From a virus, in IMG/VR virus record IMGVR_UViG_3300047469_000409, positions 1 to 63,022 of that record: a DNA stretch of 63,022 bases; one strand, written 5' to 3'. The number at the start of each line of letters is the position of its first letter. Position 1 is the stretch's first letter. The translations under genes were made by a program, and so were the position numbers. Positions 26,171 to 52,637 of this stretch are shown one piece after another. The notes below the pieces were generated by a model, which saw only the letters and a list, made by a program, of their open reading frames with translations, searched no databases and had not been told where the DNA came from.

Positions 26171-26199
26171 AGTCCATGTGACTGACGGTAATGGCGCAA
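26171..26199 (-). promoter_or_regulatory. Reverse AGTCACAT promoter-like site
   Basis: On the minus strand: TTG (26199-26197), then AGTCACA (26183-26177) and TGGACT. The distance from TTG is one base longer than in the five forward copies and the -10 is weaker. It would serve the 88-aa leftward gene. Confidence 0.35.
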
Positions 26200-26202
26200 G
26201 GC

Positions 26203-26230
26203 TTGTACAGCGATTTGAGTCACATAGGCT
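26203..26230 (+). promoter_or_regulatory. Late promoter copy 1 (lysis operon)
   Basis: TTGTAC, 16-bp spacer containing AGTCACA, then TAGGCT. TTG starts exactly 15 nt before AGTCACATA, as in four other places. It lies 75 nt before the holin gene. Confidence 0.6.
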
Positions 26231-26305
26231 CGGTAGCAAGAAGCAACTCAGCCGAAGGGTCGGACATGACCAACAAATTCCACAGCACATCAGCGAGGGC
26301 CGGAC

Positions 26306-26632
26306 ATGGAGTTCGTATCTCGTCTGATCGATAAGCTCGACGTTATCGTGGCGGGCGTCGTCGGATCGCTGGTCGCCAGCTGGTGGCACCGGGACGACAT
26401 CGCCGACTGGAAGTCCTGGGTCATCTTCATGATCACCGGCATTGCCTGCGCCCTCTACCTGACTGGAATGGTCAGTTCCCACCTGGATATCACCGAGCCA
26501 AGCAATGTGGCCGGGGTGGGGTTCCTGCTGGGCACCTTTGGCGGATCACTGATGACCGCCGTTCACCGCGCCATTAAATCCGCCGACCTATGGGCGCTCA
26601 TCCGCTCCAAGTTCGGAGGGGGCAACCCATGA
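26306..26632 (+). CDS. Putative holin (three-span)
   Basis: A 108-aa protein with three hydrophobic segments: about 13-27 (VIVAGVVGSLVASWW), 38-56 (WVIFMITGIACALYLTGMV) and 68-86 (VAGVGFLLGTFGGSLM). A basic end follows. Size, topology and position as first gene of the lysis cluster fit a class I-type holin that permeabilises the inner membrane. GAGGG precedes the ATG. It overlaps the next membrane gene by ATGA. Confidence 0.7.
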   Translation: MEFVSRLIDKLDVIVAGVVGSLVASWWHRDDIADWKSWVIFMITGIACALYLTGMVSSHLDITEPSNVAGVGFLLGTFGGSLMTAVHRAIKSADLWALIRSKFGGGNP

Positions 26633-26955
26633 ATACTCAAATGCTCAGCACGATGTTCATCGGCACCATCACCCTATGGGCCTTCTGGTCGGTCTTCAGC
26701 TCCAAGGTACGTGATGGGGTGATCGGGAAGCTGATCTACGCCGCCATCGCAATATCTGGCTACGCCATCGCTACACGCAGCGAAACCATCATCTTCACGC
26801 CGACAGTTGCTGGCGTCACCTTCCACGGATCGCTCGCCCTGGCGGGCCTGAGGCATATCTTCATGGTCACGTACTGGGTTCGGGTGAAGCGCTGGATCTG
26901 CCAGCGAATCGACTGTGACGGCTGCCTGCATGGCAAGATGGAGGATCGCAAGTGA
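26629..26955 (+). CDS. Second lysis-cluster membrane protein
   Basis: A 108-aa protein with two or three hydrophobic stretches (TMFIGTITLWAFWSVF, KLIYAAIAISGYAIA and a weaker one near 75-90) and a Cys-containing basic end. It lies between holin and hydrolase genes, so it may be a second holin or an antiholin. ATG at 26629 overlaps the holin stop. Confidence 0.6.
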   Translation: MNTQMLSTMFIGTITLWAFWSVFSSKVRDGVIGKLIYAAIAISGYAIATRSETIIFTPTVAGVTFHGSLALAGLRHIFMVTYWVRVKRWICQRIDCDGCLHGKMEDRK

Positions 26956-27377
26956 CCGTTTCCGAAGAGGAACTAGACATCTTCGCCCGCACGCTGTGGG
27001 GTGAAGTCCGCGGTGAGTCGGCGCTTGGAAAAATCGCCGCAGCCTGGACCATTCGCAACCGGGTAGAGGATGGAAAGCGCAATTCCTGGTGGGGTGAAGG
27101 TTATGCGGGCGTGTGCCAGAAGCCATACCAGTTCAGTTGCTGGAACAGAAACGATCCAAATTATCCGTTCCTGAGTGGCGCAAAGGCCATTCCGGCGGGC
27201 GAGTACAGGGCTGCGATGGCGGCGGCGGTCGTTGTGATTGCTGGGGGCGAGCCCGATCCAACCTTCGGGGCAACTCACTACTACGCAACCACAATGCCCA
27301 AGCCCCCAGCTTGGGCGGCTAAGGCGACTAAAACCGCAACAATCGGACATCACGTCTTTTTCAGGGACGTTCCATGA
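26952..27377 (+). CDS. SleB-type cell wall hydrolase (endolysin)
   Basis: A 141-aa Hydrolase_2 (SleB) family protein that would cleave peptidoglycan during lysis. Visible are the catalytic-domain start IFARTLWGEVRGES, AAAWTIRNRV, CQKPYQFSCWN and the late GATHYYATTMPKPPAWA segment. Glu18 and Glu22 (in WGEVRGE) are the likely catalytic or structural acids. The start is GTG at 26952 in a GTGA overlap. No signal peptide is visible, so it depends on the holin. Confidence 0.85.
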   Translation: MTVSEEELDIFARTLWGEVRGESALGKIAAAWTIRNRVEDGKRNSWWGEGYAGVCQKPYQFSCWNRNDPNYPFLSGAKAIPAGEYRAAMAAAVVVIAGGEPDPTFGATHYYATTMPKPPAWAAKATKTATIGHHVFFRDVP

Positions 27378-27874
27378 CGGCCATTCTCAAGCTGGTCCCG
27401 GCATGGGTATGGGTCGCCCTGGGCCTAATCGCCACTACCGGTTACCTGGCATTGAGGCTGGACAGCGTAAAGGCCGACCGTGATGCCGTGACGGTTGAGC
27501 GTGACGCTGCGCAAGCCAAGGCCAAATCTCTCGCAGCAACACTAACCCTCCAGCGCCAGATAACCCAAGACGTCAACAAGGTGGCCGACGATGCCAAAGC
27601 CCAAACAGACAACATTGCTGCTGCCGTTGTTATTGCTGACGGCCACGCTGACAGCTTGCAGCAACAAATCGCCAAACTACTCGCCGCCCGAAAGACCTGT
27701 GAGTCCACGGTTGCCAGCGGAAGCAAAGCAAGAGCCGACCTTGCCGTTCTGCTTGCCGACCTGCGTAGAAGCGCTGACGAAAGAGCGGGAGTCCTGGCAG
27801 CAGCGCTTGACCGAAGCCGAGTAGCAGGAAAGGCGTGCGAAGCGACGTACAACACAGTGACAGCCAATCAATGA
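27374..27874 (+). CDS. Rz-like inner-membrane spanin
   Basis: A 166-aa protein with one N-terminal membrane anchor (VWVALGLIATTGYLALRL, about 12-29) and a long helical periplasmic part, the topology of i-spanins. An o-spanin gene is nested inside it in another frame. Together they fuse inner and outer membranes at the last step of lysis. Confidence 0.8.
   Translation: MTAILKLVPAWVWVALGLIATTGYLALRLDSVKADRDAVTVERDAAQAKAKSLAATLTLQRQITQDVNKVADDAKAQTDNIAAAVVIADGHADSLQQQIAKLLAARKTCESTVASGSKARADLAVLLADLRRSADERAGVLAAALDRSRVAGKACEATYNTVTANQ
27591..27824 (+). CDS. Rz1-like outer-membrane lipoprotein spanin (nested)
   Basis: A 77-aa protein encoded entirely inside the Rz gene in a different frame. It has a signal sequence (TTLLLPLLLLTATL) ending in a lipobox LTAC with Cys23, then a Pro-rich segment (SPPERPVSPRLP), as in Rz1 proteins. 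The nested arrangement is typical of lambdoid spanins and makes the call firm. Confidence 0.8.
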   Translation: MPKPKQTTLLLPLLLLTATLTACSNKSPNYSPPERPVSPRLPAEAKQEPTLPFCLPTCVEALTKERESWQQRLTEAE

Positions 27875-27890
27875 GCACGGGAGCAGTGCA

Positions 27891-28322
27891 ATGAAGAAGT
27901 TTCAGGTCGTAACAACAACGGGTGTCAAGGTCACTGTTGAGGCTGAGAAGGCGCGATGGAATGCCGAATCGGCCAGTCATGTCGAATTCCTCAATTCGGC
28001 CAATGAGCGGGTAGCTGTGTTCGCTCATTTCCAGCAGTGGATCGAGATGGCACAAGAGAAGCCAGGGCTGGGTATCACGGTAGAGTCAATCCGCATGGGC
28101 TCTTCGCTGGGTGGTAAGGATGATCCCTCGCTGAAAACTACAGCCTATTCAACCAGCACGCAGGAGCTTTTTTCCATCGCGGCTAAAGCGATTGGCGAGT
28201 GCGGGGGATTCCCGATGCACATAACCGTGCCTGATGAGCTTACGGAAGCCTATCTTGATGCCTGGTTCGCTAAATACTTCCCTTCTGTCGTCTTGGCTCG
28301 CAAGCAAGATGGTCCGCAATGA
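27891..28322 (+). CDS. Hypothetical protein between lysis and terminase genes
   Basis: A 143-aa mixed alpha/beta protein (MKKFQVVTTTGVKVTVEAEK start). A GGAG upstream supports the start, and its stop overlaps the exonuclease start by ATGA. Unrecognised. Confidence 0.6.
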   Translation: MKKFQVVTTTGVKVTVEAEKARWNAESASHVEFLNSANERVAVFAHFQQWIEMAQEKPGLGITVESIRMGSSLGGKDDPSLKTTAYSTSTQELFSIAAKAIGECGGFPMHITVPDELTEAYLDAWFAKYFPSVVLARKQDGPQ

Positions 28323-28753
28323 ACCTCTACATCGACACGGAATTCAATGAGTTCGGCGGTGCCTTGATCTCCATGGCGCTGGTATCTGAGTGTGGTCGGG
28401 AGTTCTACGAGGTTTTGCACTGCGCTGAGCCGGGCGAATGGGTTGCCGAGCATGTAATGCCGATCCTTGGGAAGGATCCGATCACTGGGAGTCAGTTGCA
28501 GGCCAAGCTGCAAGCATTCCTTCGGCAGTTCCCGGCAATCCACGTCATTGCTGACTGGCCCGAGGACATCCAGCACTTCTGCCATGCGCTTATCACTGGC
28601 CCAGGCATGCGCCTGGATACGCCGCCGCTCACCATGGAAATATGCCGGAATATTGATGCAGTGTCCGAGATTCCCCACAACGCCCTGTTTGACGCTCGCG
28701 CAATTCGTGAGTGCGTGATGTCGGGTCGCGCGGCAGAGACAATCAATGTGTGA
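28319..28753 (+). CDS. RNase H-fold 3-prime to 5-prime exonuclease-like protein
   Basis: A 144-aa protein with the DEDD-type start YIDTEFNEFGG (Asp and Glu of motif I), a middle Asp (VIADWPED) and a C-terminal HNALFDARAIREC that supplies His and Asp. This fits the small bacterial and phage 3-prime exonuclease family related to Rv2179c. Substrate (RNA or DNA) is not known. It lies upstream of the small terminase. Confidence 0.75.
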   Translation: MNLYIDTEFNEFGGALISMALVSECGREFYEVLHCAEPGEWVAEHVMPILGKDPITGSQLQAKLQAFLRQFPAIHVIADWPEDIQHFCHALITGPGMRLDTPPLTMEICRNIDAVSEIPHNALFDARAIRECVMSGRAAETINV

Positions 28754-28772
28754 TGAGTGCGAGGAGGTCTAA

Positions 28773-29375
28773 ATGACAGAGAAGACCGCACCAGACTGGG
28801 AGCTGATAGAGACGCTATACCGCGCCGGGCTTCTGTCTGTGCGCGAGATTGCTGCCGCTCAGGGGGTATCCCACACCGCCATCCAGAAGAAGGCCAAGGC
28901 CGGATCATGGGAGCGTGACCTCAAGGCGAAGATAAAAGCCAAGGCAGATGCACTGGTTGCCAAAGCAGAGGTTGCCACGCAGGTTGCCATTGAATCACTG
29001 GCAACCGAAAAGGGGATTGTCGACGCAAACGCTCAGGTCGTTGCTGATATCCGCATGACTCACCGCCGCGACATCAGCCGCTCCCGCAGATTGGCAATCA
29101 AGCTGCTGGAAGAGCTGGAGGGCATGACCGACGAGCGCGCCACCCTGAAAGAGTTGATCGCACAGCTCAAAGAAGGCGAGGACGCCGACACTGCCATGCT
29201 CGACCTGGCTACTAAAATGATGAGCCTGCCGAACCGCACGAAAATCATGAAAGAGATCGCTGAGACATTGCGCGTTCTCGTCGCTCTGGAGCGTCAGGCC
29301 TACAGCATTGATGAAAACAGCCAGGACGAATCCTACGAGGATCGCCTGGCGCGGTTGATGGGGGCGAAAGAATGA
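28773..29375 (+). CDS. terS: Small terminase subunit
   Basis: A 200-aa protein that would recognise the packaging site. An N-terminal helix-turn-helix (SVREIAAAQGVSHTAIQKKAKAGSWERDL, about 22-50) is followed by long helices for oligomerisation. GAGGAGG precedes ATG at 28773. The large subunit is separated from it by two small genes and the leftward hicAB pair. Confidence 0.8.
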   Translation: MTEKTAPDWELIETLYRAGLLSVREIAAAQGVSHTAIQKKAKAGSWERDLKAKIKAKADALVAKAEVATQVAIESLATEKGIVDANAQVVADIRMTHRRDISRSRRLAIKLLEELEGMTDERATLKELIAQLKEGEDADTAMLDLATKMMSLPNRTKIMKEIAETLRVLVALERQAYSIDENSQDESYEDRLARLMGAKE

Positions 29376-29581
29376 GCAAGCCAAGAAACACCACCGAGCC
29401 AATGACCCCGAAAGAGCGGGTGTTTGGCACTATTGAGCTGGTTCTGAGCCATGCACGCAGCGGCAGCAGTGATCTTGATCTGGATCGTGCCTACATCATC
29501 CGAGCGCTTGAGCGGGTTATGACTTGGGAGTCCGAGCTGGCAGACAGGCAGGATGAACCCTTGACTCAGGTTAAGGAATGA
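29372..29581 (+). CDS. Small protein between terminase subunits
   Basis: A 69-aa acidic protein (MSKPRNTTEPMTPKERVFGT start), helical. ATGA overlaps on both sides. Unrecognised. Confidence 0.55.
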   Translation: MSKPRNTTEPMTPKERVFGTIELVLSHARSGSSDLDLDRAYIIRALERVMTWESELADRQDEPLTQVKE

Positions 29582-29751
29582 ACCCCGCGCCACGAAACGC
29601 CCATATCGAAATCGTGGCGCGCAAAAAGAACTGGGCGGTCACTACGCCTGATCGCAGGCCATTCCCCATGATCCTTATGGATGAGGCGATGGATCATGAG
29701 CGCGCCCTGGCTCACGCGCGATGTATCTGGCCGGCCTGCACCGTCGAATGA
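29578..29751 (+). CDS. 57-aa protein convergent with hicB
   Basis: A 57-aa basic protein (MNPAPRNAHIEIVARKKNWA start). It overlaps the previous stop by ATGA and ends one base before the hicB stop. Unknown function. Confidence 0.5.
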   Translation: MNPAPRNAHIEIVARKKNWAVTTPDRRPFPMILMDEAMDHERALAHARCIWPACTVE

Positions 29752-29752
29752 A

Positions 29753-30178
29753 TCAAGCAGCCTCAACCGAAACTGTCAGCCGCTTGCCCAGGGCGCGCAA
29801 TGCCCCCTCAACCTGCTCAATCTTCGAGTTGTGCTCAAAGTCCACCAGCCTGGTTGCTACCGGGTGGGAAACGCCAAGCTTTCGTCCGAGATCGGCCACG
29901 CGCATTCCTTGCTCGCACATGGCGTTCCATAGTGCGATCTTGGCGACCACCTGGACAGGGAGCGCCACAGGCTTCAGCCATTCATTTGCAGGCGGCGTGG
30001 CAGGCGGAATAGACCGCCCCTGGTCAACGTAGATGGTCAGGGCCAGGGTTATGCCTTCGACGGCATTTGCCATCAGTTGCTCTGGCGTATCCCCGGCGCT
30101 GTGCGCTTCTGGAATATCTGGGCAGGAAGACCAAAAGCTGCCCGCCTCATCGTGTATGTGTACTGTGTATTCGTACAT
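29753..30178 (-). CDS. hicB: HicB-type antitoxin
   Basis: A 141-aa protein with an N-terminal HicB domain (MYEYTVHIHDEAGSFWSSCPDIP, then HSAGDTPEQLMANAVEGI) and a C-terminal helix-turn-helix (MRVADLGRKLGVSHPVATRL). It would neutralise HicA and repress the pair. ATG at 30178 is taken from the family start. Located 62 bp after hicA. Confidence 0.88.
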   Translation of the reverse strand: MYEYTVHIHDEAGSFWSSCPDIPEAHSAGDTPEQLMANAVEGITLALTIYVDQGRSIPPATPPANEWLKPVALPVQVVAKIALWNAMCEQGMRVADLGRKLGVSHPVATRLVDFEHNSKIEQVEGALRALGKRLTVSVEAA

Positions 30179-30240
30179 TTTCTGATTCCTATGTGTTGCC
30201 AGTATGTGGGGCCGACCAGCGTTCCACCAAGGGTGGAGCC

Positions 30241-30432
30241 TCATTCCTTGAGGCCCAGTTGCTTGATTATCTCCTTCCTTAACCCTTCGCCTATCTCCTT
30301 GGCTCCGTGGTTGGGGAAGGTCGTTTGGTTGCCGTTCGGGGCTTTGACTTTGAAGTGGCTTCCGCCGCCTCTAGCCTTCTTGAAAGTCACCCCTCGCGAC
30401 GCCAGCCATCGTTGGAACTCGCTGTACTTCAT
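30241..30432 (-). CDS. hicA: HicA-type mRNA interferase toxin
   Basis: A 63-aa protein with the HicA double-stranded-RNA-binding-like fold and the conserved His26 in GGGSHFKV, then TFPNHGAKEIGEGLRKEIIKQL. HicA cleaves mRNA when not bound by HicB. On a prophage it may stabilise the element or act against other phages. The pair lies between the terminase subunit genes on the opposite strand. Confidence 0.9.
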   Translation of the reverse strand: MKYSEFQRWLASRGVTFKKARGGGSHFKVKAPNGNQTTFPNHGAKEIGEGLRKEIIKQLGLKE

Positions 30433-30496
30433 CGACCCTCCTTGTGTTGTGTCGATGAGGTGATTCTACAGCACATATGATTCAATGCAACATAAA

Positions 30497-30525
30497 TGAT
30501 TAATTAAATCAGAAGTGATTAATCA
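30497..30525. promoter_or_regulatory. Putative hicAB operator
   Basis: Palindrome TGATTAATCA (30516-30525) and a related copy TGATTAATTA (30497-30506), in an AT-rich stretch upstream of hicA. Such sites suit autorepression by HicB. They lie within 20-50 bp of late promoter copy 2. Confidence 0.5.
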
Positions 30526-30543
30526 TGCATGGCGCTGACGGGA

Positions 30544-30571
30544 TTGCACAACAATTCCAGTCACATAACGT
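30544..30571 (+). promoter_or_regulatory. Late promoter copy 2 (packaging operon)
   Basis: TTGCAC, 16-bp spacer with CCAGTCACA, then TAACGT, 30 nt before the large terminase gene. Confidence 0.65.
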
Positions 30572-30601
30572 CGCCCTATCGAAATAGAACCGGGCACGCC
30601 C

Positions 30602-32140
30602 ATGTCAGCCGACGCCATGCTCTCTCAGCTCATCAGCGACGATGAGTTGTACTGCGCGCGCAACCTCAAGATCCGCACGAAGGAGGGCGAAATCCTCCCA
30701 TTCGTGTGGAACGACGCGCAGCGGATACTGCATGAGCGTCTTGAGGCCCAGGCGGCAGAGAAGGGCTGGGTCAGGGTCATCACGCTCAAGGGTCGCCAGC
30801 AGGGCATCAGCACCTACACGGCGGCACGCTTCTACAAGCGCACGTGCATGGGGTTCGGCAAGCGAACCATGATCCTGACGCACCTGGACGCCGCAACCCA
30901 GAACCTGTTCGGCATGGCCAAGACCTTTTTCGAGTTGAGCGACGCAACGCTGCGCCCGACCACGAAGGCGAACTCCGGCACCGAACTGTCATTCGCCAAG
31001 CTGCGTAGCGGGTACAAGGTGGCCACGGCCGGAAGTCCTGGCGCTGGCCGGTCCGACACCATCCAGTACCTGCACGGCTCTGAGATGGCCTTCTGGCCCA
31101 ACGCCCAGAAGATCATGGCGGGCCTGGGCCAGACGGTGCCCCTCATTGAGGGCAGCGAAGTCGTTATCGAGTCCACCGCCAATGGCATGGGCAACCTGTT
31201 CCATCAGATGTGGGTCATGGCCGTAGCTGGGAAGTCGGACTACATGGCTGTCTTCATCCCTTGGTTCGTAGAGCGTGGCTATCGCCGTACGCCGCCGAAA
31301 GGCTTCGAGCTGAGCGAGGACGACAACGAATACATGGAGGCTTACAACCTCGACGAAGAGCAGATGGCCTGGCGCCGGGCGAAGATCGATACCGACTTTG
31401 CGGGTGATGAGGACTGGTTTAACCAGGAGTACCCAGCGACACCGGACCTGGCATTCCAGAAGGTTGGCCACAAGCCGCTGATCAAGACCGTCAAGGTTTC
31501 CCTGGCCCGCAAGCAAGAAATCAAGCACATGAAGCGCATCGGCGCTCACGTTGTCGGCCTTGACCCGGCGCGCGGCGGCGACACCTCGACGTTCATCCAC
31601 CGCCAGGGCCGGGTGTCCTGGGGCATTGAGCGCAACAACGTGCCAGACACCATGGAAGTTGCCGGCCAGGCCGCTCGCATGCTCATGGACGACAAGACCA
31701 TCCGCATGATGTTCATCGACATTGGCGGCTTGGGCGCTGGCATCTATGACCGGCTCAGGGAGCTGGGCTTTGGCGATCGCGTAACAGCCGTCAACTTTGG
31801 CTCTTCCGCGTCCGACACCCGCAAATACTTCAACAAGCGCGCCGAGATGTGGGGCGAGATGGCTGAGTGGGTTCACGACGATATCACCCCCTGCATCCCT
31901 GATGACGACCAGCTCCACGGCGACCTCACGTCGGCATCCAAGGACAAGTACACCAGCAACGGCCAACTCAAGCTCCTACCGAAAGAAGACGCCAAGAAGG
32001 CTATCGGCCGCTCGCCAGACGATGGCGATGCACTGGCCCTGACGTTTGCCGAGCCGGTATCCGCCGACGACCAATACATTGACGACTGGAAGGCTCAACT
32101 AATGCGCAGAAATGCCCGCAAATCCGCGATGAGTGCCTGA
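30602..32140 (+). CDS. terL: Large terminase subunit
   Basis: ATP-driven DNA packaging motor and nuclease. The 512-aa protein has a variant Walker A (KGRQQGIST, 63-71), an acidic segment GSEMAFW near 150 that fits Walker B, and a C-terminal RNase H-like nuclease domain starting at GLDPARGGDTS (near residue 320), with a later DDGDALALTF close to the end. No separate endonuclease gene is needed. Headful packaging is likely for this type. Confidence 0.92.
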   Translation: MSADAMLSQLISDDELYCARNLKIRTKEGEILPFVWNDAQRILHERLEAQAAEKGWVRVITLKGRQQGISTYTAARFYKRTCMGFGKRTMILTHLDAATQNLFGMAKTFFELSDATLRPTTKANSGTELSFAKLRSGYKVATAGSPGAGRSDTIQYLHGSEMAFWPNAQKIMAGLGQTVPLIEGSEVVIESTANGMGNLFHQMWVMAVAGKSDYMAVFIPWFVERGYRRTPPKGFELSEDDNEYMEAYNLDEEQMAWRRAKIDTDFAGDEDWFNQEYPATPDLAFQKVGHKPLIKTVKVSLARKQEIKHMKRIGAHVVGLDPARGGDTSTFIHRQGRVSWGIERNNVPDTMEVAGQAARMLMDDKTIRMMFIDIGGLGAGIYDRLRELGFGDRVTAVNFGSSASDTRKYFNKRAEMWGEMAEWVHDDITPCIPDDDQLHGDLTSASKDKYTSNGQLKLLPKEDAKKAIGRSPDDGDALALTFAEPVSADDQYIDDWKAQLMRRNARKSAMSA

Positions 32141-32141
32141 C

Positions 32142-34310
32142 ATGGCTGAAGAGAAGAAGGCCCTGGGCGACAAAGAGAAGGCCACGGACAACTGGGAGCG
32201 CTACGAATACGGCCTGAATCGTGGTCAGCGCGACTACATCCAGCGTGCGCGTCTGTGCGAGAACTTCTACCTGGGCGGCGGGCGGCACTGGAATGAGTTG
32301 GACCGCCAGTTGCTGGCAGACTCCGGCCGTCCTGCGCTTGAGTTCAACCAGATCAAGAACAAGATCAACGCAGCCGTGGGCTACCAGATCGGGAACCGGA
32401 TGGACATCGGCTTCCGTCCCCGTGCAGGCGCTGCCGATGCTGATACAGCCAGCACGCTGTCGAAGCTCGCCATGCAAATCGCTGACAACAACCAACTGCA
32501 CTTCAAAGAGACTCAGGTTTTCAGTGATGGCGTGATCCAGCAGCGCGGCTACTTCGATGTCCGCATGAGCTACCGCGACACGATCCTGGGCGAGGTCAAA
32601 ATTGACATCCTCGACCCCATGGACGTGATTCCAGACCCGGACGCCAACAGCTACGACCCGGACGACTGGGCTGACGTTATCGTCAACCGCATGATGACGA
32701 AGATCGAGATCGAAGAGCTTTACGGCACCAAGGCCAAGGACTCAATCAACGAGGAAGACGCTGCCGGTGATACGTTTTTCGCCGAGCCGACGGACCTCGA
32801 CCGCAATGCATTTGGCGAGCCGGATACATTGTTCCCTGAGTATTCTGGCGCTGACCGCGACGATGACTCAACTAAGCGCTTTCGTGTGATCGATCGGCAG
32901 TTCTGGCAGATGGATCGGGCGAACGTGATCATCACCGCTACCGGCGACATTCGCCTGGTTGAAGACATCAACGCCAAGGCGGTGGCTGACATGGTGGCCG
33001 AAGGCGGGATAGTGCAGCGCCGCAGGGTGAAGCGCGTCCGCTGGCTGATCACCACCAAGGACAAGGTTCTGCACGACGACTGGTCCCCGTTCAACCACTT
33101 CACCGTCGTCCCATTCTTTCCAACCTTCCGTCGCGGGCAAACTCGCGGACTTGTGGATGACGCTATCGATCCACAGCAACTGCTCAACAAGTCGATGAGT
33201 CAGTTTCTGCACATCATCAATACCACGGCAAACAGTGGCTATATCCGCGTCGCCGGGACCCTGGCCAATATGTCCGACGATGAGTTCGCGAGTCGTGCCG
33301 CCGAGACTGGGGCAGATATCGTTATCAAGTCCGGGACCAAGATAGAGGACCGTCCGCAAAAGATTCAGCCAAACCCGGTGCCTACAGGCTTCGACAGAAT
33401 CATCGAGCGGGCAGGGCAGCTCCTTGAGTCCTCCACGGGTGTGAACGAGGCAATGTCCGGCAACCAGGGTAATGAGGTGTCAGGGATTGCCATCCAGACC
33501 CGCCAGTTCGCCGCACAGCAGCAATTGGCCGTGCCGCTGGATAACCTGGCTCGCACCCGTGGAATGCTCGCCACACGCATTTTGGAGATGATCCAGGCGT
33601 TCTATGATCAGGCGCGAATCATCCGCATCACTGAAACCGACCCGCGCGGCAAGGAAAGCACCAGCGAAATCCCTCTGAACTGGCCTCAACCTGATGGGCG
33701 AATCCTCAACGACCTGACCATCGGCGAATACGACGTCATCGTCACCGAGGCCCCGGCACAGATCACCTTCGAGAACAGCCAGTTCCTGCAAGCCATCGAA
33801 CTGAACGAGAAGGGTGCCAACATCCCCTGGTCCTTCATCATCGGCTACTCGAATCTCGCCAATAAGCAGGAAATCGTGGACGCCATGGAGCAGCAGCCCC
33901 AGGCACCAGTCGACCCAACTCTGCAAGCCAAGGCCGACCTTCTCTCGGCGCAGGGCATCAAGGCTCAGGCAGACGCGGAGAAGGCCCAGGCCGGTATTGG
34001 GTTGGCTCAGGCGCAAATCGACCTGATCAGGGCCGAGACGGTCGCCAAGTCCGTCGAGTCCGTCTACTCGTCCATCCAGACCGCAGGCGTCATCGCCACG
34101 CAGCCGGCTGTATCCAGCCTGGCCGACGCGATCCTGCTGTCATCCAACTACGTCGATCACGATGCAGCGCCAATCGTCCCCGAGTACAGCGGCACCGTGC
34201 TTGCGGCGGCTGGACTACCTGCAAACACCAATCCACTTACGCCAGCCAACCCGGGCGTCGGCCTGAACGCAGGCATCGAAACCCCAACGATTGAGGGAGT
34301 ACCAGCATGA
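32142..34310 (+). CDS. Portal protein (P22-like)
   Basis: Forms the dodecameric DNA channel of the capsid. At 722 aa it is almost exactly the size of P22 gp1 (725). The start WERYEYGLNRGQRDYIQRAR, ALEFNQIKNKINAAVGYQIGNR and a DPMDVIPDP turn are typical of P22-like portals. The C-terminal 150 residues are Ala/Gln-rich helix, as expected for a barrel. ATG at 32142 is preferred over GTG at 32133. It overlaps the next small gene by ATGA. Confidence 0.9.
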   Translation: MAEEKKALGDKEKATDNWERYEYGLNRGQRDYIQRARLCENFYLGGGRHWNELDRQLLADSGRPALEFNQIKNKINAAVGYQIGNRMDIGFRPRAGAADADTASTLSKLAMQIADNNQLHFKETQVFSDGVIQQRGYFDVRMSYRDTILGEVKIDILDPMDVIPDPDANSYDPDDWADVIVNRMMTKIEIEELYGTKAKDSINEEDAAGDTFFAEPTDLDRNAFGEPDTLFPEYSGADRDDDSTKRFRVIDRQFWQMDRANVIITATGDIRLVEDINAKAVADMVAEGGIVQRRRVKRVRWLITTKDKVLHDDWSPFNHFTVVPFFPTFRRGQTRGLVDDAIDPQQLLNKSMSQFLHIINTTANSGYIRVAGTLANMSDDEFASRAAETGADIVIKSGTKIEDRPQKIQPNPVPTGFDRIIERAGQLLESSTGVNEAMSGNQGNEVSGIAIQTRQFAAQQQLAVPLDNLARTRGMLATRILEMIQAFYDQARIIRITETDPRGKESTSEIPLNWPQPDGRILNDLTIGEYDVIVTEAPAQITFENSQFLQAIELNEKGANIPWSFIIGYSNLANKQEIVDAMEQQPQAPVDPTLQAKADLLSAQGIKAQADAEKAQAGIGLAQAQIDLIRAETVAKSVESVYSSIQTAGVIATQPAVSSLADAILLSSNYVDHDAAPIVPEYSGTVLAAAGLPANTNPLTPANPGVGLNAGIETPTIEGVPA

Positions 34311-34471
34311 GCAAGGCAGACGCGGCAGTAGACGACCTGAAATGGAGAACAGAAAGCGACCTCCGCTCGCTGGCTGAGGCGGCAGAAATCAACAAGGACC
34401 CGAAGCGCCTCAAGGCAGCTCAGGCCCTAGCAAAAGAAAAGATGGCTGACCTGTCCAAGATCGCCAAATAA
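34307..34471 (+). CDS. 54-aa helical protein after portal
   Basis: A short Lys/Ala-rich protein (MSKADAAVDDLKWRTESDLR start) coupled to the portal gene by ATGA. Perhaps a small head accessory; unknown. Confidence 0.55.
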   Translation: MSKADAAVDDLKWRTESDLRSLAEAAEINKDPKRLKAAQALAKEKMADLSKIAK

Positions 34472-34497
34472 GCAATCCGAAACTCAAGGGGCAAACC

Positions 34498-35439
34498 ATG
34501 AGCACAGCAGCAAGCGCAGCACAGCAAGAATCCCAAGCCGACATCGATGCACGCCTGGAGCAGGAACGAATCGACAGCGGCGAGCACTTTGATCCTGATG
34601 ACGCAGCCGAAGCGTCTGCCTCCACAGACGCGGCCGATACGCCGAAGCCTGCCGCCACCGACATCAGCGCCGAAACCCTGGCCCTGATCGCTGGTGAAGA
34701 CAAGCCAGCAACCGTGCCTCACGCCCGGTTCAACGAGGTGAACCTCGCCCGCAAGGCTGCCGAGGCTCGCACTCACGAGCTGGAGCTTGAGCTGGCACGC
34801 ATGAACGGCAAGGCAGAGGCCTCTACCACCAAGGACGTGGCCAAGCCCGAAGTGAAGGCTCCCACCTACGACTACGATGCGGCTGAAGACCTGTACGCCG
34901 CAGCAATCCTCGACGGTGACCAGACCAAGGCGAAGCAAATTCGCGCTGACATCCGCAAGAACGAGCAGGAAGCAGCCGACGTCCGCGCCGAAGCCGTGGC
35001 TGATCGCCGCTACAGCGCCAACCGCGCCGAAGACGATGCCAAGCGCACCAAGCTGGAGTTCGATATTGAACTGAGCAAAGCCTATGAGGCGTATCCGTTC
35101 CTGAATTCCGACAACGCAGACAAGAACGCAGACGCCATCGAAGAAACCATGGTGTGGACCCAGCACTTTATCGGCAAAGGCAAGACTTCGGCCCAGGCCC
35201 TGGCTGCTGCTGTCGCGAAGGTAGGCCCAGCTCACGCACCGAAGGCCATCGAGCAGCCAGCCGTCGCGGCGCCAAGGGTCGATATTCAGCAGGGGCTGGA
35301 CCGTGCGGCGAAGATCCCGGCGAAAGCCCAGGGCGTTGGCGTCCGAGCGTCGACACTGGATGTATCGAAAATGTCTGGCAAAGACCTCAAGGCGCTTTCT
35401 GCTGAGGATGAGGCGAGCCTGGCGGGCGATATCGTTTAG
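34498..35439 (+). CDS. Putative scaffolding protein
   Basis: A 313-aa acidic, Ala-rich, mostly helical protein located between portal and coat genes, the standard place of the scaffold. It has a charged coiled-coil middle (ARKAAEARTHELELELARMNG) and a small C-terminal block. No protease motif is visible. The call rests on position and composition. Confidence 0.7.
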   Translation: MSTAASAAQQESQADIDARLEQERIDSGEHFDPDDAAEASASTDAADTPKPAATDISAETLALIAGEDKPATVPHARFNEVNLARKAAEARTHELELELARMNGKAEASTTKDVAKPEVKAPTYDYDAAEDLYAAAILDGDQTKAKQIRADIRKNEQEAADVRAEAVADRRYSANRAEDDAKRTKLEFDIELSKAYEAYPFLNSDNADKNADAIEETMVWTQHFIGKGKTSAQALAAAVAKVGPAHAPKAIEQPAVAAPRVDIQQGLDRAAKIPAKAQGVGVRASTLDVSKMSGKDLKALSAEDEASLAGDIV

Positions 35440-35467
35440 TTGACACGCTAATCCAGTCACATAATTT
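35440..35467 (+). promoter_or_regulatory. Late promoter copy 3 (capsid operon)
   Basis: Consensus TTGACA immediately after the scaffold stop codon, a 16-bp spacer with CCAGTCACA, then TAATTT. The strongest copy by consensus, and it precedes the coat gene. Confidence 0.7.
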
Positions 35468-35688
35468 GCACCTTGCGGCATCCATTGAGACAGGGACGTC
35501 ACCTCCGCCTTCACGGGCGGATTTGACCCAGGACCAATAGGAAGCCGCTCGCTCACCGAGTCACGGTGTTCTCGCCAGCAGGGCGTAAAGCTGACCCGTT
35601 TCAAGCGCATCAGGAGCGCCCAAACCTGTCCTCGCAAGGGTGGCGACATACCCAGAACCACAAAGCCACCTTTATAGGAATTGCCCTC
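35468..35688 (+). other. Long untranslated leader before the coat gene
   Basis: About 220 nt between the promoter and the coat ATG with no supported gene. It contains a hairpin CCGCC-TTCACG-GGCGG near 35506-35521. An in-frame open stretch upstream of the coat ATG exists from 35566, but coat homology starts at 35689. Confidence 0.5.
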
Positions 35689-36807: not shown

Positions 36808-36816
36808 GGAGGCCTC

Positions 36817-37209: not shown

Positions 37210-37211
37210 CC

Positions 37212-37236: not shown

Positions 37237-37260
37237 TCAACATGCAAAGGGGCAATAACC

Positions 37261-42734: not shown

Positions 42735-42750
42735 AGCCAAGGGGTAATTT

Positions 42751-45860: not shown

Positions 45861-46849
45861 GAGCAAACATCATCAAAAAGCCGGACTCATCCGGGCTCGG
45901 CGAGACACTACAGTTCAGCAGCTACTCAGGATCTACCGAACTGCTTTCTTGGAGTGTTGCCCTGGCGGGGCGAGAGATACTGACGCAGTGGGCTCATGAC
46001 TCGGTAGCTTATGGGGTCATTGCGAATTCGGCCAGCGAAGCCTCGGGCTACCAAAGAACGCTTGGTGCAGCATTCTACGGCCCGGCGACTCCTTCGCCGA
46101 CGGCATGTACCGTCGTTGATTTTACGCCAATCCTCAATCCGACCGGGCTTATCATCGCCACTGATTCGACTCGCTCGCTAGTGCAGGGGCGTCTCATTGC
46201 CAATGGGTCCTACACCCTGGCGACGGTAAATGTTTCTGCGACAGAGGCCTCAGTTTCATATCAGCCTCAAACCGCCCAAGAGATCGCTCAAAACACGACG
46301 ATGACGTTTGAGGACGGGCACTGCCGGGTGATCACCATCAGCAGCGATGCGACGACAATGAGCCTGTCGACAATCGTGGGCGACGGTACTGGGCTTGATA
46401 TCGCCCTGACCATACCGCTAACCGCACCAGTGCTTGACCAAGATAACGTTTCTGGCTCCATCGTCGCTATGGTGCTCGCGCTGTACGGGCTGGCTGATGC
46501 CGCAGAAAGCCAGGGCCTTGGGGTGGTCAAGGATTTCGGCCCCTGGTTCATTATTCGGAGTGCGCCAGGTGTCAATGGCGGCGCTTCCCCCGCGCACGGG
46601 CAGGTTGCGGCGCGAAATGAGGACGGCATTATTCGTGCGTGTTTCGGGGCCGAGAATGGAGCAGGCCTTGACCTGTACGAAATCATGATCAAGTCGGCGT
46701 CTGATTATGAGCAGGTTTACTCGGGATCGCTCGCCAATCCATCTGGCTGGGTAACCCCTACCTACCGGGTTTCTCTCGATGAAATACCTGAAAACCCGCC
46801 GTTCTGGACAAACTTCGTGAGTTCTTTCGAGGAGATCGACTCCGCTTGA
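45857..46849 (+). CDS. Tail-region protein of unknown role
   Basis: A 330-aa protein (MRANIIKKPDSSGLGETLQF start), Ser/Thr/Ala-rich and beta-rich. It ends in an aromatic tail (PPFWTNFVSSFEEIDSA). ATG at 45857 overlaps the previous stop. Unrecognised; last gene of this late sub-operon before late promoter copy 4. Confidence 0.55.
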   Translation: MRANIIKKPDSSGLGETLQFSSYSGSTELLSWSVALAGREILTQWAHDSVAYGVIANSASEASGYQRTLGAAFYGPATPSPTACTVVDFTPILNPTGLIIATDSTRSLVQGRLIANGSYTLATVNVSATEASVSYQPQTAQEIAQNTTMTFEDGHCRVITISSDATTMSLSTIVGDGTGLDIALTIPLTAPVLDQDNVSGSIVAMVLALYGLADAAESQGLGVVKDFGPWFIIRSAPGVNGGASPAHGQVAARNEDGIIRACFGAENGAGLDLYEIMIKSASDYEQVYSGSLANPSGWVTPTYRVSLDEIPENPPFWTNFVSSFEEIDSA

Positions 46850-46873
46850 TCGCCCTCGCCAGTCACATAGGCT
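46846..46873 (+). promoter_or_regulatory. Late promoter copy 4 (ejection-protein operon)
   Basis: TTGATC, 16-bp spacer with CCAGTCACA, then TAGGCT, 30 nt before the 575-aa gene. The -35 overlaps the end of the preceding gene. Confidence 0.65.
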
Positions 46874-46902
46874 GGCCGCAATAGCACTCGGAGTACTAAA
46901 TT

Positions 46903-48630
46903 ATGCCAGTTGGTGATCTCGTCGGGGACTTGGCAACTGCCTACCTGACCCCCGCGCAGCGTCAGGCTCAATTGCTCAAGGGCGCCGTCAAGCAAACGTC
47001 TTTCGATGCGACTAATACCGCTACCGGTCCAGTTGCGCGCGCCCAGCAGCAGTTGCCGCCGGTCAGCCTTGCGTCGCTCGCCCCAGGTGGCGCAGTCGCC
47101 GCCCAGCCGCCAGCGGCGCCGAGCCTTGCCAGCCTTGGCGCAGGGTACTCCACGCAACCCGCAGCAAACCCCTCGACTGCCGTCAAGCCTCAAGCGTCGG
47201 GGCTCGGCTCGCTGGCACCCGTCGGCGCACCGCCCACTACGGATTCGCCTTCATACCCGGGAGCAAGTCAGCAGTCAGCGAGTCTTGGCAGCTTGTCGCC
47301 GGTAGCGGCGCAGACGCCCGTCGCTGCCGCCACGCCAGCGGGCCTCGAAGCCGCGTACCGCCCGGTTGGCAACAGGCAGGGGACGAACGCTATCGTCGGC
47401 AGGCTTGGCGCCGATGGTGCCCCGGAATTCTCTAACCGCACGACCGATCTCGCCAGTGCTGCGGGCATGGCCCCGGTGAGCAATCCGCCACAACAGAGCG
47501 GCGACCTTGCATCGCTTGCCAGTCTGGCGCCAGGTGCAGCATCAAGCCCCGAATTCGCAGCTCTTGGGTCAGCCCGAAACCTCGGCGATGGCGTAGGGAC
47601 ATTCAGCCAATCGAATGCAGGCGACGCAGCGCTATCGCTCGCTCGCTTTGGCCGCGCAAACGACATCCGCCGCGCAGGACAGGATCAGGACCGCCTGGAC
47701 CTCGCCAATGCTCGCAATGCCCAGGCCGGTCAGCTCACAGTGGTTCGCGACAGCAGCAAGCCGCTCACCAAAAGCGATATTGCTCAGGCGCAGCTTGACC
47801 AGCAGGGCCGGCAGAGCCTGGCCGATGCCGCTACCGGCGCCCAGGGCATCATTAATGATCGTCGCCAGGGTGCGGCGGCAGACCAGCAGTTACGCCAGGC
47901 TACTCGACTGGAAGACTTGGCGAACGCCGCTTCCGGCCCAAACGCGACGCCTCAGGCGAAAGCTGCCTACCTGGCCGCTACCGATCCAACCGGCGACAAG
48001 GCTCTTGCTCGGCAGCAGGCCCAGGCCCAGCTATCCAATACTCAAAAAGAAGGGCAGATCAAGCAGCAGCAATACGAGCAGAGCGCTGTGAAGCAAACCC
48101 AGGACCAGCAAACACTGGCCACCCAGAAGACAGGCAGCCTGGATATTGCCAAGCGCGCACGGGATCTGGCCCAGACGATTGGGAGCAATGGGCAGTTCGA
48201 CAAGATCACCGGGACGGTTGACTCCATAACCCCGACCTTTTTCGGCGGCAGTCAGGACCTCATTAACCAGGCCAGCCAGCTCCAAACGCTACTCACCGCC
48301 GACAACCTCAAGCTCATGACGGGCGTTCTCACCGACAAAGACATCGCGTTCCTGACGCAAATTGGCTCCGGCCTCAATGTGGGCAAGAACGGCATCAACG
48401 GCTCGGAAGAGGGCGCACGCAAGGTGCTTGGGGAAATCACAGGCAGGCTCAATCAGAAAATTACGGAGTACGAGAAAACGAACCCCGCGCAGCCTGCATC
48501 GAGCCAGCCTGCAAGCACCTCTCAGGCAGCCCAGCCATCAGTTCCTACGATCACCTCCAAGGCCCAAGCGGACGCTCTGCCAGCAGGTAGCCTGTTCATT
48601 GGGCCAGACGGCAAGCAGTACAGGAAATAA
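46903..48630 (+). CDS. Putative ejection (internal virion) protein with SLAP repeats
   Basis: A 575-aa Ala/Gln/Ser-rich protein. The first 220 residues carry about five copies of a short motif of the type (S/D)LASLAPG or LGSLAPV, separated by disordered Ala/Pro-rich linkers. The rest is helical and Gln-rich (about 250-480), with a globular part near 430-500. Large, low-complexity helical proteins at this place are delivered into the host with the DNA in short-tailed phages. Inferred from composition and position. Confidence 0.6.
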   Translation: MPVGDLVGDLATAYLTPAQRQAQLLKGAVKQTSFDATNTATGPVARAQQQLPPVSLASLAPGGAVAAQPPAAPSLASLGAGYSTQPAANPSTAVKPQASGLGSLAPVGAPPTTDSPSYPGASQQSASLGSLSPVAAQTPVAAATPAGLEAAYRPVGNRQGTNAIVGRLGADGAPEFSNRTTDLASAAGMAPVSNPPQQSGDLASLASLAPGAASSPEFAALGSARNLGDGVGTFSQSNAGDAALSLARFGRANDIRRAGQDQDRLDLANARNAQAGQLTVVRDSSKPLTKSDIAQAQLDQQGRQSLADAATGAQGIINDRRQGAAADQQLRQATRLEDLANAASGPNATPQAKAAYLAATDPTGDKALARQQAQAQLSNTQKEGQIKQQQYEQSAVKQTQDQQTLATQKTGSLDIAKRARDLAQTIGSNGQFDKITGTVDSITPTFFGGSQDLINQASQLQTLLTADNLKLMTGVLTDKDIAFLTQIGSGLNVGKNGINGSEEGARKVLGEITGRLNQKITEYEKTNPAQPASSQPASTSQAAQPSVPTITSKAQADALPAGSLFIGPDGKQYRK

Positions 48631-48632
48631 CC

Positions 48633-51140
48633 ATGGCCGATAATAGTTGGTTGAGCGATTACACCCCGGTAGACGCCAAGGCGATAGAGCCGGCTACCCA
48701 GGCGGCGCCGGTAGCGGACAACTCCTGGCTTTCCTCTTTTACCCCGGTTGATGCCGGCCAGGTTTCCGCACAGCCGCCTGTGCCCGCTGCCGCCGCTGAT
48801 GACCCGCGCCAGAAGTTCGCCCAAGATGCGATGGCGAGGTTCCCTACAGAGGGCGAGCAGTTCGCCAAGGATCAGGAGGCTCGTGGTAGCCGCGGCGTAC
48901 TCGGCTCGGTCAGCGACTTTTTCACCGGAGCGGACAGAGAGACAGCGCGTAGCAAAAACCTTCCCGAGCTGTCCGGCCTACTTCAGAACCAGGGCACATG
49001 GGACAATATCAAGACCACCGCAGCCCTCGCGATCACACCAAACAACGACGAGGCTAGCCAGATACTGAAGTCGGCAAACCCGAACCTTACGTTCGACAAG
49101 GATGCAGCAGGCAACATCATCGGGTATGACCCCACAACCGGGGCTAGAGCGTTGGTCAACTCGCCTGGTGCCTCCTTGCTCGACGGCCTGCAAGCTGCGA
49201 CCGGCATTGCTGCATACACCCCGGCATCTGGTGCCGCTGGCCTGCTTGGCGCTGGCGCACTACGGGGAGCTGCCGCCATAGGCGGTGCGACCGCCCTCAC
49301 CGAAACAGGAATTCAAACAGCGCAGGCGGCCGCCGGGGGCGAGTTCAATCCGGAAGACGTGGCGATATCAGCCATTGCGGGGGCTGGCGGCGAACTACTG
49401 GCGCGCGGCATTGGCGCGGTAGGTGGGAGCGCACGTACCGGAATTGCCGATCGTACGGCCCAGGCAACCCAGCTTCGGGGAGATTTCGATGCGGCAGTGG
49501 CGGCAGGCGAGGCACCTGATCTTGCCGCGCAGCGCCTACTCGGCCAGCCAGCACCGCCTCCGCAAGATACCGCTGGGGCAGCGCAGTCCGTGGTGACGGC
49601 GGCTAACGCTTCCACTCGACAGCAAATACCGACCATTGAGCGTCTGGCGGCAGACGCCGCACCTGATCAGCGAATCCTTGACGCTGCTGGGCGCCTGGGT
49701 GTGGCCGAAAAACTGATTCCAAGCCAATACTCCGGCAGTCAGGCGTACCGTGAGATTGAGCAGGGACTGGCCTCTATCCCTGGCAGCCAGCTCAATGTCC
49801 AGCAGAAGGAGGCCTACGCCGCCGTAGCGCAGCAGGCCGACGATCTGATCACGCGCTACGGCGGGACCACGGACAAGAGTGCGCTGTCCGACAAATTCAA
49901 GCAGCAGGGCCTCAGCACTATCGAGGACTTGGAGAAGAAATCCGATTCGCTTTACAGCCAGGTGAGCGCTGCCATCCCGGCCGCAACCCAAACGGCGCCG
50001 ACATCTACCATTGGTTACCTCAATAGTAAGATCGCGGAGCTTGGTGATCGCACGCTTTTGAGTGCGGCCGAGCGGCGAACCCTCAGCTCATTGTCGCGTG
50101 TAGATGATGCCGGCAACCCCATCGCCCCAACTTATGCAGCTCTCGACCTGATTCGCAAGGAGGTCGGCAGCGGCCTGCGTGGCGCCGGGCGCTTCAAGGA
50201 CACGGAGAGCGGTGCGCTGCGCAGGCTGTACGCCACGCTGAGCGACGACCAGCAACGCACGGCCGATTCCATGGGTGTCGGCCAGGCGTTCAATGCGGCC
50301 AAGGCCCTAGTTGCGCAGCGAAAGAGTGTCGAGGACGGCCTCGTGCAGGTGCTGGGTAAGGATTTGACTGGCGCACTGGCTTCCACCTTCGGGAATTCGG
50401 TCAAGCAGCTTGGCGCAGGCAACTTCAAAAGCTTCGACAAGGTCATCGAGCAGATTCCCCAGAATATGCGCCAGGAGGCTGTGCTCACTGCACTGAACGA
50501 CGCATTCACGGCCGGCAGTCGTGCTGAAAAGCAGATGAGCGCGCCAGGGTTTGTCGATTGGTACGGCGGCCTGTCCCGCAACGACGCAGCCAGGCAGCGC
50601 CTGCAACAGTATCTGCCCATCGGGGCGTCGCAGCAGTTGGACGACATCTATACCGTGGCCAAGGGCATGCGTGATGCAAGCAAGGAGAGGATCACGACGG
50701 GCCGCATAACAGCTCTGCTGGACAATTTCGCTAACGACGGCGGGATGCTTGGCAAATTGTGGGATGTCGGCAAGAAGGTTGGGGCGGCCGAGGGGGTTAC
50801 GTCTGGCCTGGGCCTTCCCGGCGCCGGGACTGTCGGGGTGATTGCGTCCACCCTTAATAAGCAGAAAACACCAATTGCCGAAGCCGCAGGGAAACTCCTG
50901 TCTTCTCAACGGTTCAAGGATACCGTCAATGCGTTCGCCAGATCGGGCGGCACCGGCGCCGCAAACATTACCGCCCAAGAACGCCGACTGATGCGCACGC
51001 CGGTATATAAGAAGTGGGCGGCAGCGCTGGGAGAGGAATCGAAGGCCAGGGTAGCCACGGTCGGCCCCCTGGTCTATTTGTCCGAAGGGGCTTCCGCTCC
51101 TGCCGCCATCGAGCTGCCAGCTACCACAGTGACGCCTTAG
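48633..51140 (+). CDS. Putative large ejection protein with duplicated N-terminal tag
   Basis: An 835-aa protein, the largest in the window. The N-terminus has a duplicated block, ADNSWLSDYTPVDA (2-15) and ADNSWLSSFTPVDA (28-41). A hydrophobic Ala/Gly-rich segment follows at about 190-235 (AAGLLGAGALRGAAAIGGAT), able to insert in a membrane, and the remainder is helical. This fits a protein ejected into the periplasm to form a DNA conduit. Two bases separate it from the previous stop. Confidence 0.65.
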   Translation: MADNSWLSDYTPVDAKAIEPATQAAPVADNSWLSSFTPVDAGQVSAQPPVPAAAADDPRQKFAQDAMARFPTEGEQFAKDQEARGSRGVLGSVSDFFTGADRETARSKNLPELSGLLQNQGTWDNIKTTAALAITPNNDEASQILKSANPNLTFDKDAAGNIIGYDPTTGARALVNSPGASLLDGLQAATGIAAYTPASGAAGLLGAGALRGAAAIGGATALTETGIQTAQAAAGGEFNPEDVAISAIAGAGGELLARGIGAVGGSARTGIADRTAQATQLRGDFDAAVAAGEAPDLAAQRLLGQPAPPPQDTAGAAQSVVTAANASTRQQIPTIERLAADAAPDQRILDAAGRLGVAEKLIPSQYSGSQAYREIEQGLASIPGSQLNVQQKEAYAAVAQQADDLITRYGGTTDKSALSDKFKQQGLSTIEDLEKKSDSLYSQVSAAIPAATQTAPTSTIGYLNSKIAELGDRTLLSAAERRTLSSLSRVDDAGNPIAPTYAALDLIRKEVGSGLRGAGRFKDTESGALRRLYATLSDDQQRTADSMGVGQAFNAAKALVAQRKSVEDGLVQVLGKDLTGALASTFGNSVKQLGAGNFKSFDKVIEQIPQNMRQEAVLTALNDAFTAGSRAEKQMSAPGFVDWYGGLSRNDAARQRLQQYLPIGASQQLDDIYTVAKGMRDASKERITTGRITALLDNFANDGGMLGKLWDVGKKVGAAEGVTSGLGLPGAGTVGVIASTLNKQKTPIAEAAGKLLSSQRFKDTVNAFARSGGTGAANITAQERRLMRTPVYKKWAAALGEESKARVATVGPLVYLSEGASAPAAIELPATTVTP

Positions 51141-51162
51141 CGATTATGCTGGACGCCTAAAT

Positions 51163-51399
51163 ATGCGGAATGCGGCGCTCATGGGCAAAACATATTCAAA
51201 TACCTCATCGAAGGCCGGGTATCGCCGCGCGTGGCTGGTTTTTTCCGTGCTATGGATTCTCGCCGTGGTGGGGATGACGTTTGATTATTACGACAGGGTG
51301 AAACTCTTCTTCCTTGTCGGGCTGCTGCCCATGGCTGCCTTGTACGCTCTAGGCTCTGCGGTCGCATGGGTGAGGCGGGGCTTCGCGCGGGCGGATTGA
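51163..51399 (+). CDS. Small two-span membrane protein
   Basis: A 78-aa protein with two hydrophobic stretches (AWLVFSVLWILAVVGMTF and LFFLVGLLPMAALYALGSAVAW) and a basic tail. ATG at 51163 or 51181 could be the start; neither has a strong ribosome site. Perhaps a superinfection-exclusion or lysis-accessory protein; unknown. Confidence 0.5.
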   Translation: MRNAALMGKTYSNTSSKAGYRRAWLVFSVLWILAVVGMTFDYYDRVKLFFLVGLLPMAALYALGSAVAWVRRGFARAD

Positions 51400-51584
51400 T
51401 AGGCGATTCCTGCGCGCCACCCCTTAGCCGCACAAATTCTCTATTTAACTATATATTGAATTCCTGCCCCTCCATGGTTAACCTGACTACGGATTGATCA
51501 ATTCTGATCGTCCACGTAGTAAATATTGCTGTGCCCGGTCACCTCTGGACAAGGTATTGTCCCTGTGACTTTTCGGAGATGATG
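51400..51584 (+). promoter_or_regulatory. AT-rich gap with promoter for the YafO pair
   Basis: Includes TTGATC (near 51496) with a 17-bp spacer to TAGTAA. The stretch is clearly more AT-rich than the surroundings and contains repeated TGATC motifs. No late-promoter copy is present, so the pair is probably expressed independently in the lysogen. Confidence 0.45.
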
Positions 51585-52145
51585 ATGATTCAAGGTCAAC
51601 AGGTAGCTGCTTCGGCGGCAATGGCTCTCGCTTTGAGCGTGACCACTTCCTTTGCGCACGTCGCGGCAGATCCGCTTCATTGGGCGCAGCCTGCCTCGTC
51701 GGAATCCCTCAGATCGGACACACAAACCATTCTTGCAGCTAAGGCCAGGCTCAGAGCGCATATGAAGGTCTCGGTGGAGCGACTTTCTAGCCTGCGCAAA
51801 GAATTGGAATTTTCCTGCAAAATGATCGTTACCAAAAACGTGACCCGCGCAGCCCTCGAGAATGAGCCGTTTACGCAAGTGGCCTTCGCCTTGCGTGAAT
51901 TAGAGTCTGCCATGGCCGACAGATGGGAGTCGCTTTACCGGATGCCTATCATCGGCGACGAGGCTCGCGGCCTGAGGAAGCTATTGGCTCAGACGCGCTC
52001 CCTGTCCTCCCGCAACGCCATGATGCTCAGGCAGATGGTCGAGCTTCCTCAGTTTGTAGAAGCGGCAGCAGACCTGAAGGGTCTCAGCACCCTTGCAACA
52101 ATGGCGACAGAACGCGCAGGCCAGATGGCCTCTAAGCGCGTGTAA
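51585..52145 (+). CDS. Helical protein with a signal-like N-terminus, partner of the YafO toxin
   Basis: A 186-aa helical protein. Three ATG codons stand in a row (51579-51587); I take the third because CGGAG is six nt upstream. The first 25 residues (QQVAASAAMALALSVTTSFAHVAA) form a hydrophobic stretch like a signal peptide, although no basic residue precedes it. The gene ends exactly one base before the toxin ATG, so translation is coupled. It is not YafN-like. It could be an unusual antitoxin or an unrelated exported protein. Confidence 0.55.
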   Translation: MIQGQQVAASAAMALALSVTTSFAHVAADPLHWAQPASSESLRSDTQTILAAKARLRAHMKVSVERLSSLRKELEFSCKMIVTKNVTRAALENEPFTQVAFALRELESAMADRWESLYRMPIIGDEARGLRKLLAQTRSLSSRNAMMLRQMVELPQFVEAAADLKGLSTLATMATERAGQMASKRV

Positions 52146-52583
52146 ATGCCCTGCACGGTACATTTCAGCGAGCTCACCTACGACGATTTCTTCAAGCCAG
52201 TTCTGGACTTATATCCTGACCTACTGAATCAGGTCAGCCTGGATTTCAAGAACTATATCGATTCTGAGCGATTGGACCTGCCTGAGTATTTTGGTTGCGA
52301 TGTCGCCTATGTGAAGCAGGATGCTGCGATTAAGCAGGGCCTGATGCACATTCATCTTGCTATCCCGCCCGTGACTTTCCCCAAGAACAAGCCCAAGTCA
52401 GACCGGAAGTGCCCGCGAGACCCAGCTACTGATGCAGCGCTCGTTTACGCCCAAGGGCTATACGACGAGGATCAGTACGTCCTCATCGCAATTCTCTACC
52501 CTGGCGCGCACGGCAAGGCCAATGAGCGATGGATAATGCTCAAGCTTATAGAGGCTGCGAAGCGCTTCCGAGACCAATACTGA
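52146..52583 (+). CDS. YafO-family toxin
   Basis: A 145-aa protein whose C-terminal half matches the YafO ribosome-dependent mRNA interferase family: DAALVYAQGLYDEDQYVLIAIL, then the closing helix LIEAAKRFRDQY. The central LMHIHLAIP block corresponds to the similar stretch in YafO. No yafN antitoxin gene is near; the only partner is the coupled helical protein upstream. It lies in the late region among structural genes but has its own promoter. GC content is lower than its neighbours, suggesting later acquisition. Confidence 0.75.
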   Translation: MPCTVHFSELTYDDFFKPVLDLYPDLLNQVSLDFKNYIDSERLDLPEYFGCDVAYVKQDAAIKQGLMHIHLAIPPVTFPKNKPKSDRKCPRDPATDAALVYAQGLYDEDQYVLIAILYPGAHGKANERWIMLKLIEAAKRFRDQY

Positions 52584-52609
52584 CGTCTCAATCTAACCGG
52601 CTAGTCCGG

Positions 52610-52637
52610 TTGCCCTCCCAATCCAGTCACATACGCT
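52610..52637 (+). promoter_or_regulatory. Late promoter copy 5 (tail-fibre operon)
   Basis: TTGCCC, 16-bp spacer with CCAGTCACA, then TACGCT, 24 nt before the 201-aa gene. Confidence 0.6.

Follow-up and report, generated by a model that had tools for sequence, protein, structure and literature searches.

The window analyzed in this study is the whole stretch of 63,022 nucleotides of the IMG/VR virus record IMGVR_UViG_3300047469_000409. At the end of its lambda-like early region, the gene of a small helix-turn-helix (HTH) protein directly follows NinG, which is the position of Q in lambda-like phages. This position is filled by a protein that is apparently unrelated to Q and seems to work differently. 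A leftward gene and a reverse copy of a promoter-like motif are found beside the HTH gene, and five further copies of the motif are found ahead of late genes. The features are as follows.

25520..25879, + strand: small helix-turn-helix protein, proposed late-promoter activator; the frame may begin at GTG 25520 (119 aa) or at ATG 25529 (116 aa)
25766..25795, + strand: predicted recognition helix LKWQTVKMRR, residues 83-92 (AlphaFold helix 85-93)
25876..26142, - strand: leftward gene ('antigene') of 88 aa, in tail-to-tail orientation to the proposed activator gene
26171..26199, - strand: reverse copy, TTGCGC-N17-TGGACT with AGTCACA beside the -10 box; presumed promoter of the leftward gene
26203..26230, + strand: predicted late promoter 1, TTGTAC-N16-TAGGCT, ahead of holins, endolysin, Rz, an RNase H-like gene, and TerS
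30544..30571, + strand: predicted late promoter 2, TTGCAC-N16-TAACGT, ahead of TerL and portal; predicted leader ~24 nt
35440..35467, + strand: predicted late promoter 3, TTGACA-N16-TAATTT, ahead of the major coat gene; begins directly after a stop codon
46846..46873, + strand: predicted late promoter 4, TTGATC-N16-TAGGCT, ahead of 46903 (575 aa) and 48633 (835 aa); predicted leader ~23 nt
52610..52637, + strand: predicted late promoter 5, TTGCCC-N16-TACGCT, ahead of 52662 and tail-fibre genes; predicted leader ~18 nt

An earlier note on this DNA had reported five sites with TTG 15 nt ahead of AGTCACATA and a TAnnnT -10 box, each standing before late genes. All five sites (TTG-N12-AGTCACATA-NNNT at 26203, 30544, 35440, 46846, and 52610) are exact in the sequence and lie on the late strand. 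They are intergenic, except that 46846 overlaps the last 4 nt of the upstream ORF, and by annotation they precede the lysis/TerS, TerL/portal, coat, 46903, and 52662 groups. AGTCACATA is absent from the window outside these sites, and the motif does not occur in its genes. The pattern TTG-N12-AGTCACATA-NNN-T, which occurs five times in the window, occurred in none of 100 dinucleotide shuffles and in none of 400 Markov simulations. The site observation is confirmed, and it is stronger than first claimed. The sites contain TTG and TAnnnT within the 15-18 bp separation used to define a sigma-70 promoter, with a spacing of 16 in the aligned sites, and the hexamers are otherwise weak. A standard scan for four of six consensus positions passed none of the five sites, the boxes being too weak (TAgccT, TTGcac). 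The conserved box positions are those most important to sigma-70, and a word of ~12 bases ahead of the -10 box is no sigma-70 requirement. Judged by this anatomy, the sites have the core of a weak sigma-70 promoter, in which the 16-bp spacer ends in a fixed word abutting the -10 box.

The motif recurs in related phages, for which the earlier note had proposed a search. Relatives were picked by coat protein, and the search of whole records was limited to 16 records with a coat identity of at least 75%. All 16 near relatives, among records that are in many cases metagenomic and in some cases near duplicates, carry 3-7 copies each (77 in total), all on their own late strand, and a reversed control pattern gave no match in the same 16. 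An alignment of 82 distinct sites, collected via AGYCACATA with TTG in place, reads TTGc, then a variable stretch followed by AATCC, AGYCACA, and TAnnnT, with 16 bp between the boxes, and the spacer word AATCCAGYCACA lies between the -35 and -10 boxes. Within these sites, T7 of the -10 box is conserved in 81 of 82, and most have AATCC ahead of the word. A few additional sites in the relatives contain TTC in place of TTG. These phages thus have several predicted late promoters that share a word outside the core boxes, five in the window and 3-7 in the relatives.

The motif is also very rare in unrelated Pseudomonas genomes, so that the refuting result named in the earlier note, a motif just as frequent inside genes and in unrelated phages, did not appear. 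A search of 400 Pseudomonas genomes (~2.4 Gb) gave 13 matches, including five in one related prophage of G026, two in G431, and six singletons. All three genome matches that show the host genus are Pseudomonas. No near match to the window was found among named phages, and literature searches returned no description of this motif. Acidovorax phage AP1 and Pseudomonas phiR18 were searched blind for motifs as well, and neither showed a TTG/TAnnnT family. We note that AP1 (L147), the nearest named phage, contains another repeat, TAGGGTTCGCGCGC or similar, before several late genes (upstream of 18320, 32940, and 45283). The proposed system offers a concrete candidate for the late-gene switch of a Pseudomonas prophage group that is not represented among the named phages searched.

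A homolog of the HTH protein is present in all motif-bearing phages whose region was read. In one comparison of the early genes, the motif-bearing relatives all contain the HTH gene and the leftward gene, and most contain NinG, while other early genes are patchy and mosaic. The AlphaFold model of the HTH protein consists of a beta hairpin followed by the HTH, with the second helix at residues 85-93 and the remainder at low confidence. No Pfam family was found for the protein. A profile search against PDB sequences and a fold search with the model, whose confident region is limited to the small HTH, gave no useful match, no solved relative, and no match to Q or AlpA. There is weak profile similarity to the HTH of phage HNH endonucleases, and the 50,697 phage records searched gave no convincing match, just weak ones of the HNH type. 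Neither the protein nor the system is named in Pfam or in these records. No relatives turned up when the proteins of G318 and G087 were used to scan viral sequences, and no HTH relative was found among 369 sampled genomes of Gammaproteobacteria outside Pseudomonas (G026, a Pseudomonas, was the exception). Some homologs are only ~65-75 aa in length.

It is worth noting that the segment QMAIDF (25628-25645; residues 37-42 of the HTH protein), which is QLSLDF or QLTIDF in relatives, resembles a bacterial clamp-binding motif. Such a motif is present in the first 50 residues of nearly all proteins of the AGTC and AGCC classes described below, versus 0.8% of other ORFs; proteins of the AGTG and AGGG classes did not show it.

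The recognition helix of the HTH protein changes together with the spacer word. Four pairs were found.

LKWQTVKMRR, word AGTCACA: 21 records
IKWNTVKMRR, word AGCCACA: 4 records
IAWDTVRQRR, word AGTGACA: 6 records
LCWETAKKRR, word AGGGACA: 1 record (one genome, G318)

Four relatives with a 94% identical coat contain AGCCACATA at every site and the helix IKWNTVKMRR, versus LKWQTVKMRR in the phages with AGTCACATA. The AGTGACA and AGGGACA words were obtained blind, with the known spacer word left out of the search: a search by TTG, spacing, and TAnnnT alone gave AGTGACATA in a distant group with the helix IAWDTVRQRR, and the same type of search with spacers of 15-17 gave AGGGACATA in G318, whose helix is LCWETAKKRR. 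The classes are distinguished by helix residues 83, 84, 86, 88, 89, and 90, and proteins of the AGTGACA and AGGGACA classes differ at many residues beyond the helix. The pairing holds over 32 records, except for one AGCCACATA site in the AGTGACATA record G019; these records represent about three independent motif shifts. G228 and G421 have the LKWQTVKMRR helix and no exact site in their genomes. Phage kinship does not explain the word, because G032 has the same helix and word with a portal of 26% identity and no detectable coat or TerL match, yet G318 has a different helix and a different word with a TerL of 74% identity. By these comparisons, the word tracks the helix, not kinship. The earlier note had named the HTH protein as an activator that reads the fixed spacer, and the covariation in four classes supports this proposal. 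Because the word changes in step with its DNA-reading helix, the HTH protein is very probably the trans-acting factor of this switch. The natural pairs Q86/AGTC, N86/AGCC, D86/AGTG, and E86/AGGG provide a testable specificity code.

The leftward gene is kept in motif-bearing phages and was not found in G032. Its protein had no match in Pfam, and a low-confidence model suggests a helix-hairpin-helix and no HTH. The looser reverse copy proposed ahead of this gene proved to be real and conserved (TTG-N13-AGTCACA-TGGACT at 26199-26171). Every relative examined has a counterpart ahead of its leftward gene, ~41 nt before the ATG in most, and this copy varies with the motif class (CAGTCACATG, CAGCCACATG, GTGACATA, and AGGGACAG). 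Since it is conserved and class-dependent, the reverse copy is likely a sixth target of the factor. The leftward gene could take part in the system, as it is conserved almost as widely as the HTH gene.

We then considered how the HTH protein may act. Lambda-type Q and Pseudomonas aeruginosa AlpA also use a spacer word, and both act by antitermination, for which they depend on a -10-like pause as well as a terminator farther downstream (PMC7969949, PMC9371919). Similar to AlpA and the Q proteins of lambda, 21, and 82, the HTH protein here would read a word between -35 and -10 and control late or lysis genes. It might therefore bind the spacer word at each of the five promoters, load on the paused polymerase, and read through terminators; its genome place is that of Q, its HTH is C-terminal behind a conserved N-terminal segment, and the coat leader is long and may contain hairpins. 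The most likely start of the coat gene is 35689, which gives this leader ~215 nt; a start at 35566 (leader 92 nt) is less likely. However, AlpA and Q are processive antiterminators with a pause and a terminator, and we found neither here. No -10-like element was found at a fixed place, and none was enriched in the first 20 nt. The predicted leaders at three of the five sites are just 18-24 nt, unlike the coat leader, and so leave no room for a terminator; no intrinsic terminator was found in the leaders on the + strand. In addition, the shortest homologs speak against an antiterminator, as does the lack of a sequence match to any solved one. Q serves a single late promoter, and the AlpA word, GGGACG-N5-GGTA, differs from the word here. 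We consider antitermination unlikely, although it is the main rival, and activation of initiation is favored because of the missing pause element and the short leaders without terminators. Based on the promoter anatomy, the HTH protein most likely activates initiation instead of loading as an antiterminator.

Two other explanations are less probable. It is very improbable that the HTH protein represses the late promoters from an operator placed between -35 and -10. Repressor operators often lie in that interval, and autoregulation might account for the reverse copy beside the HTH gene, but the boxes are weak (TAgccT and TTGcac), with no site of the five passing the consensus scan, and the gene is at the end of the early operon, away from the cI-like repressor. 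We also give very little credence to the idea that the word is read by a different factor, of phage or host origin, and that the HTH protein just travels along. The leftward gene (25876-26142) would be a candidate by its wide conservation, but its modelled fold, at low confidence, has no HTH, the helix that changes with the word belongs to the HTH protein, and a host factor is not expected to covary with phage lineages.

From the computed sites, their conservation, and the helix-word covariation, we infer binding, activation of initiation, and feedback in the following scheme, which we regard as probable as a whole. In a temperate P22-like Pseudomonas phage, five weak sigma-70 promoters (TTGnnn, 16 bp, TAnnnT) would drive the late operons. 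The HTH protein, whose gene (25520-25879) closes the early operon, would bind the word AATCCAGTCACA in the promoter spacer and help the host RNA polymerase initiate, so that each late operon is switched on separately. The same protein may act at the weaker divergent copy (26199-26171) to drive the leftward gene. Transcription of the leftward gene would continue in antisense through part of the activator gene, pointing to a possible feedback loop.

Activators of several promoters are found in other phages. P2 Ogr/delta is one phage activator for several scattered late promoters; it and Mu C belong to other protein families, and their binding sites overlap the -35 box or lie upstream of it. Mu C is one activator for several scattered late promoters as well (lys, I, P, and mom; PMC4461284). 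The proposed factor is similar to Mu C and P2 Ogr in this respect, and differs in that its word abuts the -10 box within the spacer. With the HTH domain that phage HNH endonucleases carry (phrog_3377), it shares a weak profile similarity in the W...G....T...R..RG....A motif, whereas the protein here is stand-alone and small and contains no nuclease domain. A more speculative likeness is to T4 late transcription (gp55, gp33, and the gp45 clamp), as the N-terminal Q-hydrophobic-x-hydrophobic-x-F segment is like clamp-binding peptides. Unlike T4, there is no sigma-like factor here, the sigma-70 boxes are kept, and the segment was not seen among proteins of the AGTG or AGGG class. A tentative and rather doubtful extension is that these proteins form an unnamed class of late activators derived from the HNH-endonuclease HTH, with the word at the -10 box inside the spacer and no antitermination, and that the clamp-like QLxLDF of the main lineage ties late transcription to replication, as in T4 with an unrelated protein.

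HTH relatives were also observed in other settings. In L143, L144 (G026:C29), L140, and L142 (G421), the LKWQ helix or a near version of it is found in another element, where AGTCACA words are present and matching promoter boxes are absent. The relatives L132, L136, and L138 lie closely upstream of a TerS-like gene, with one short gene between, and have no repeated promoter word; in G087, G075, and G112, where HTH relatives are closely upstream of a TerS-like gene, the repeated promoter word was not found.

A part of the coat leader, 35547-35648, had no match in Rfam, and no pair covariation can be demonstrated for it because the sequence hardly varies. These ~100 nt are nearly invariant where coats share just 60% identity, and they may be a structured RNA.
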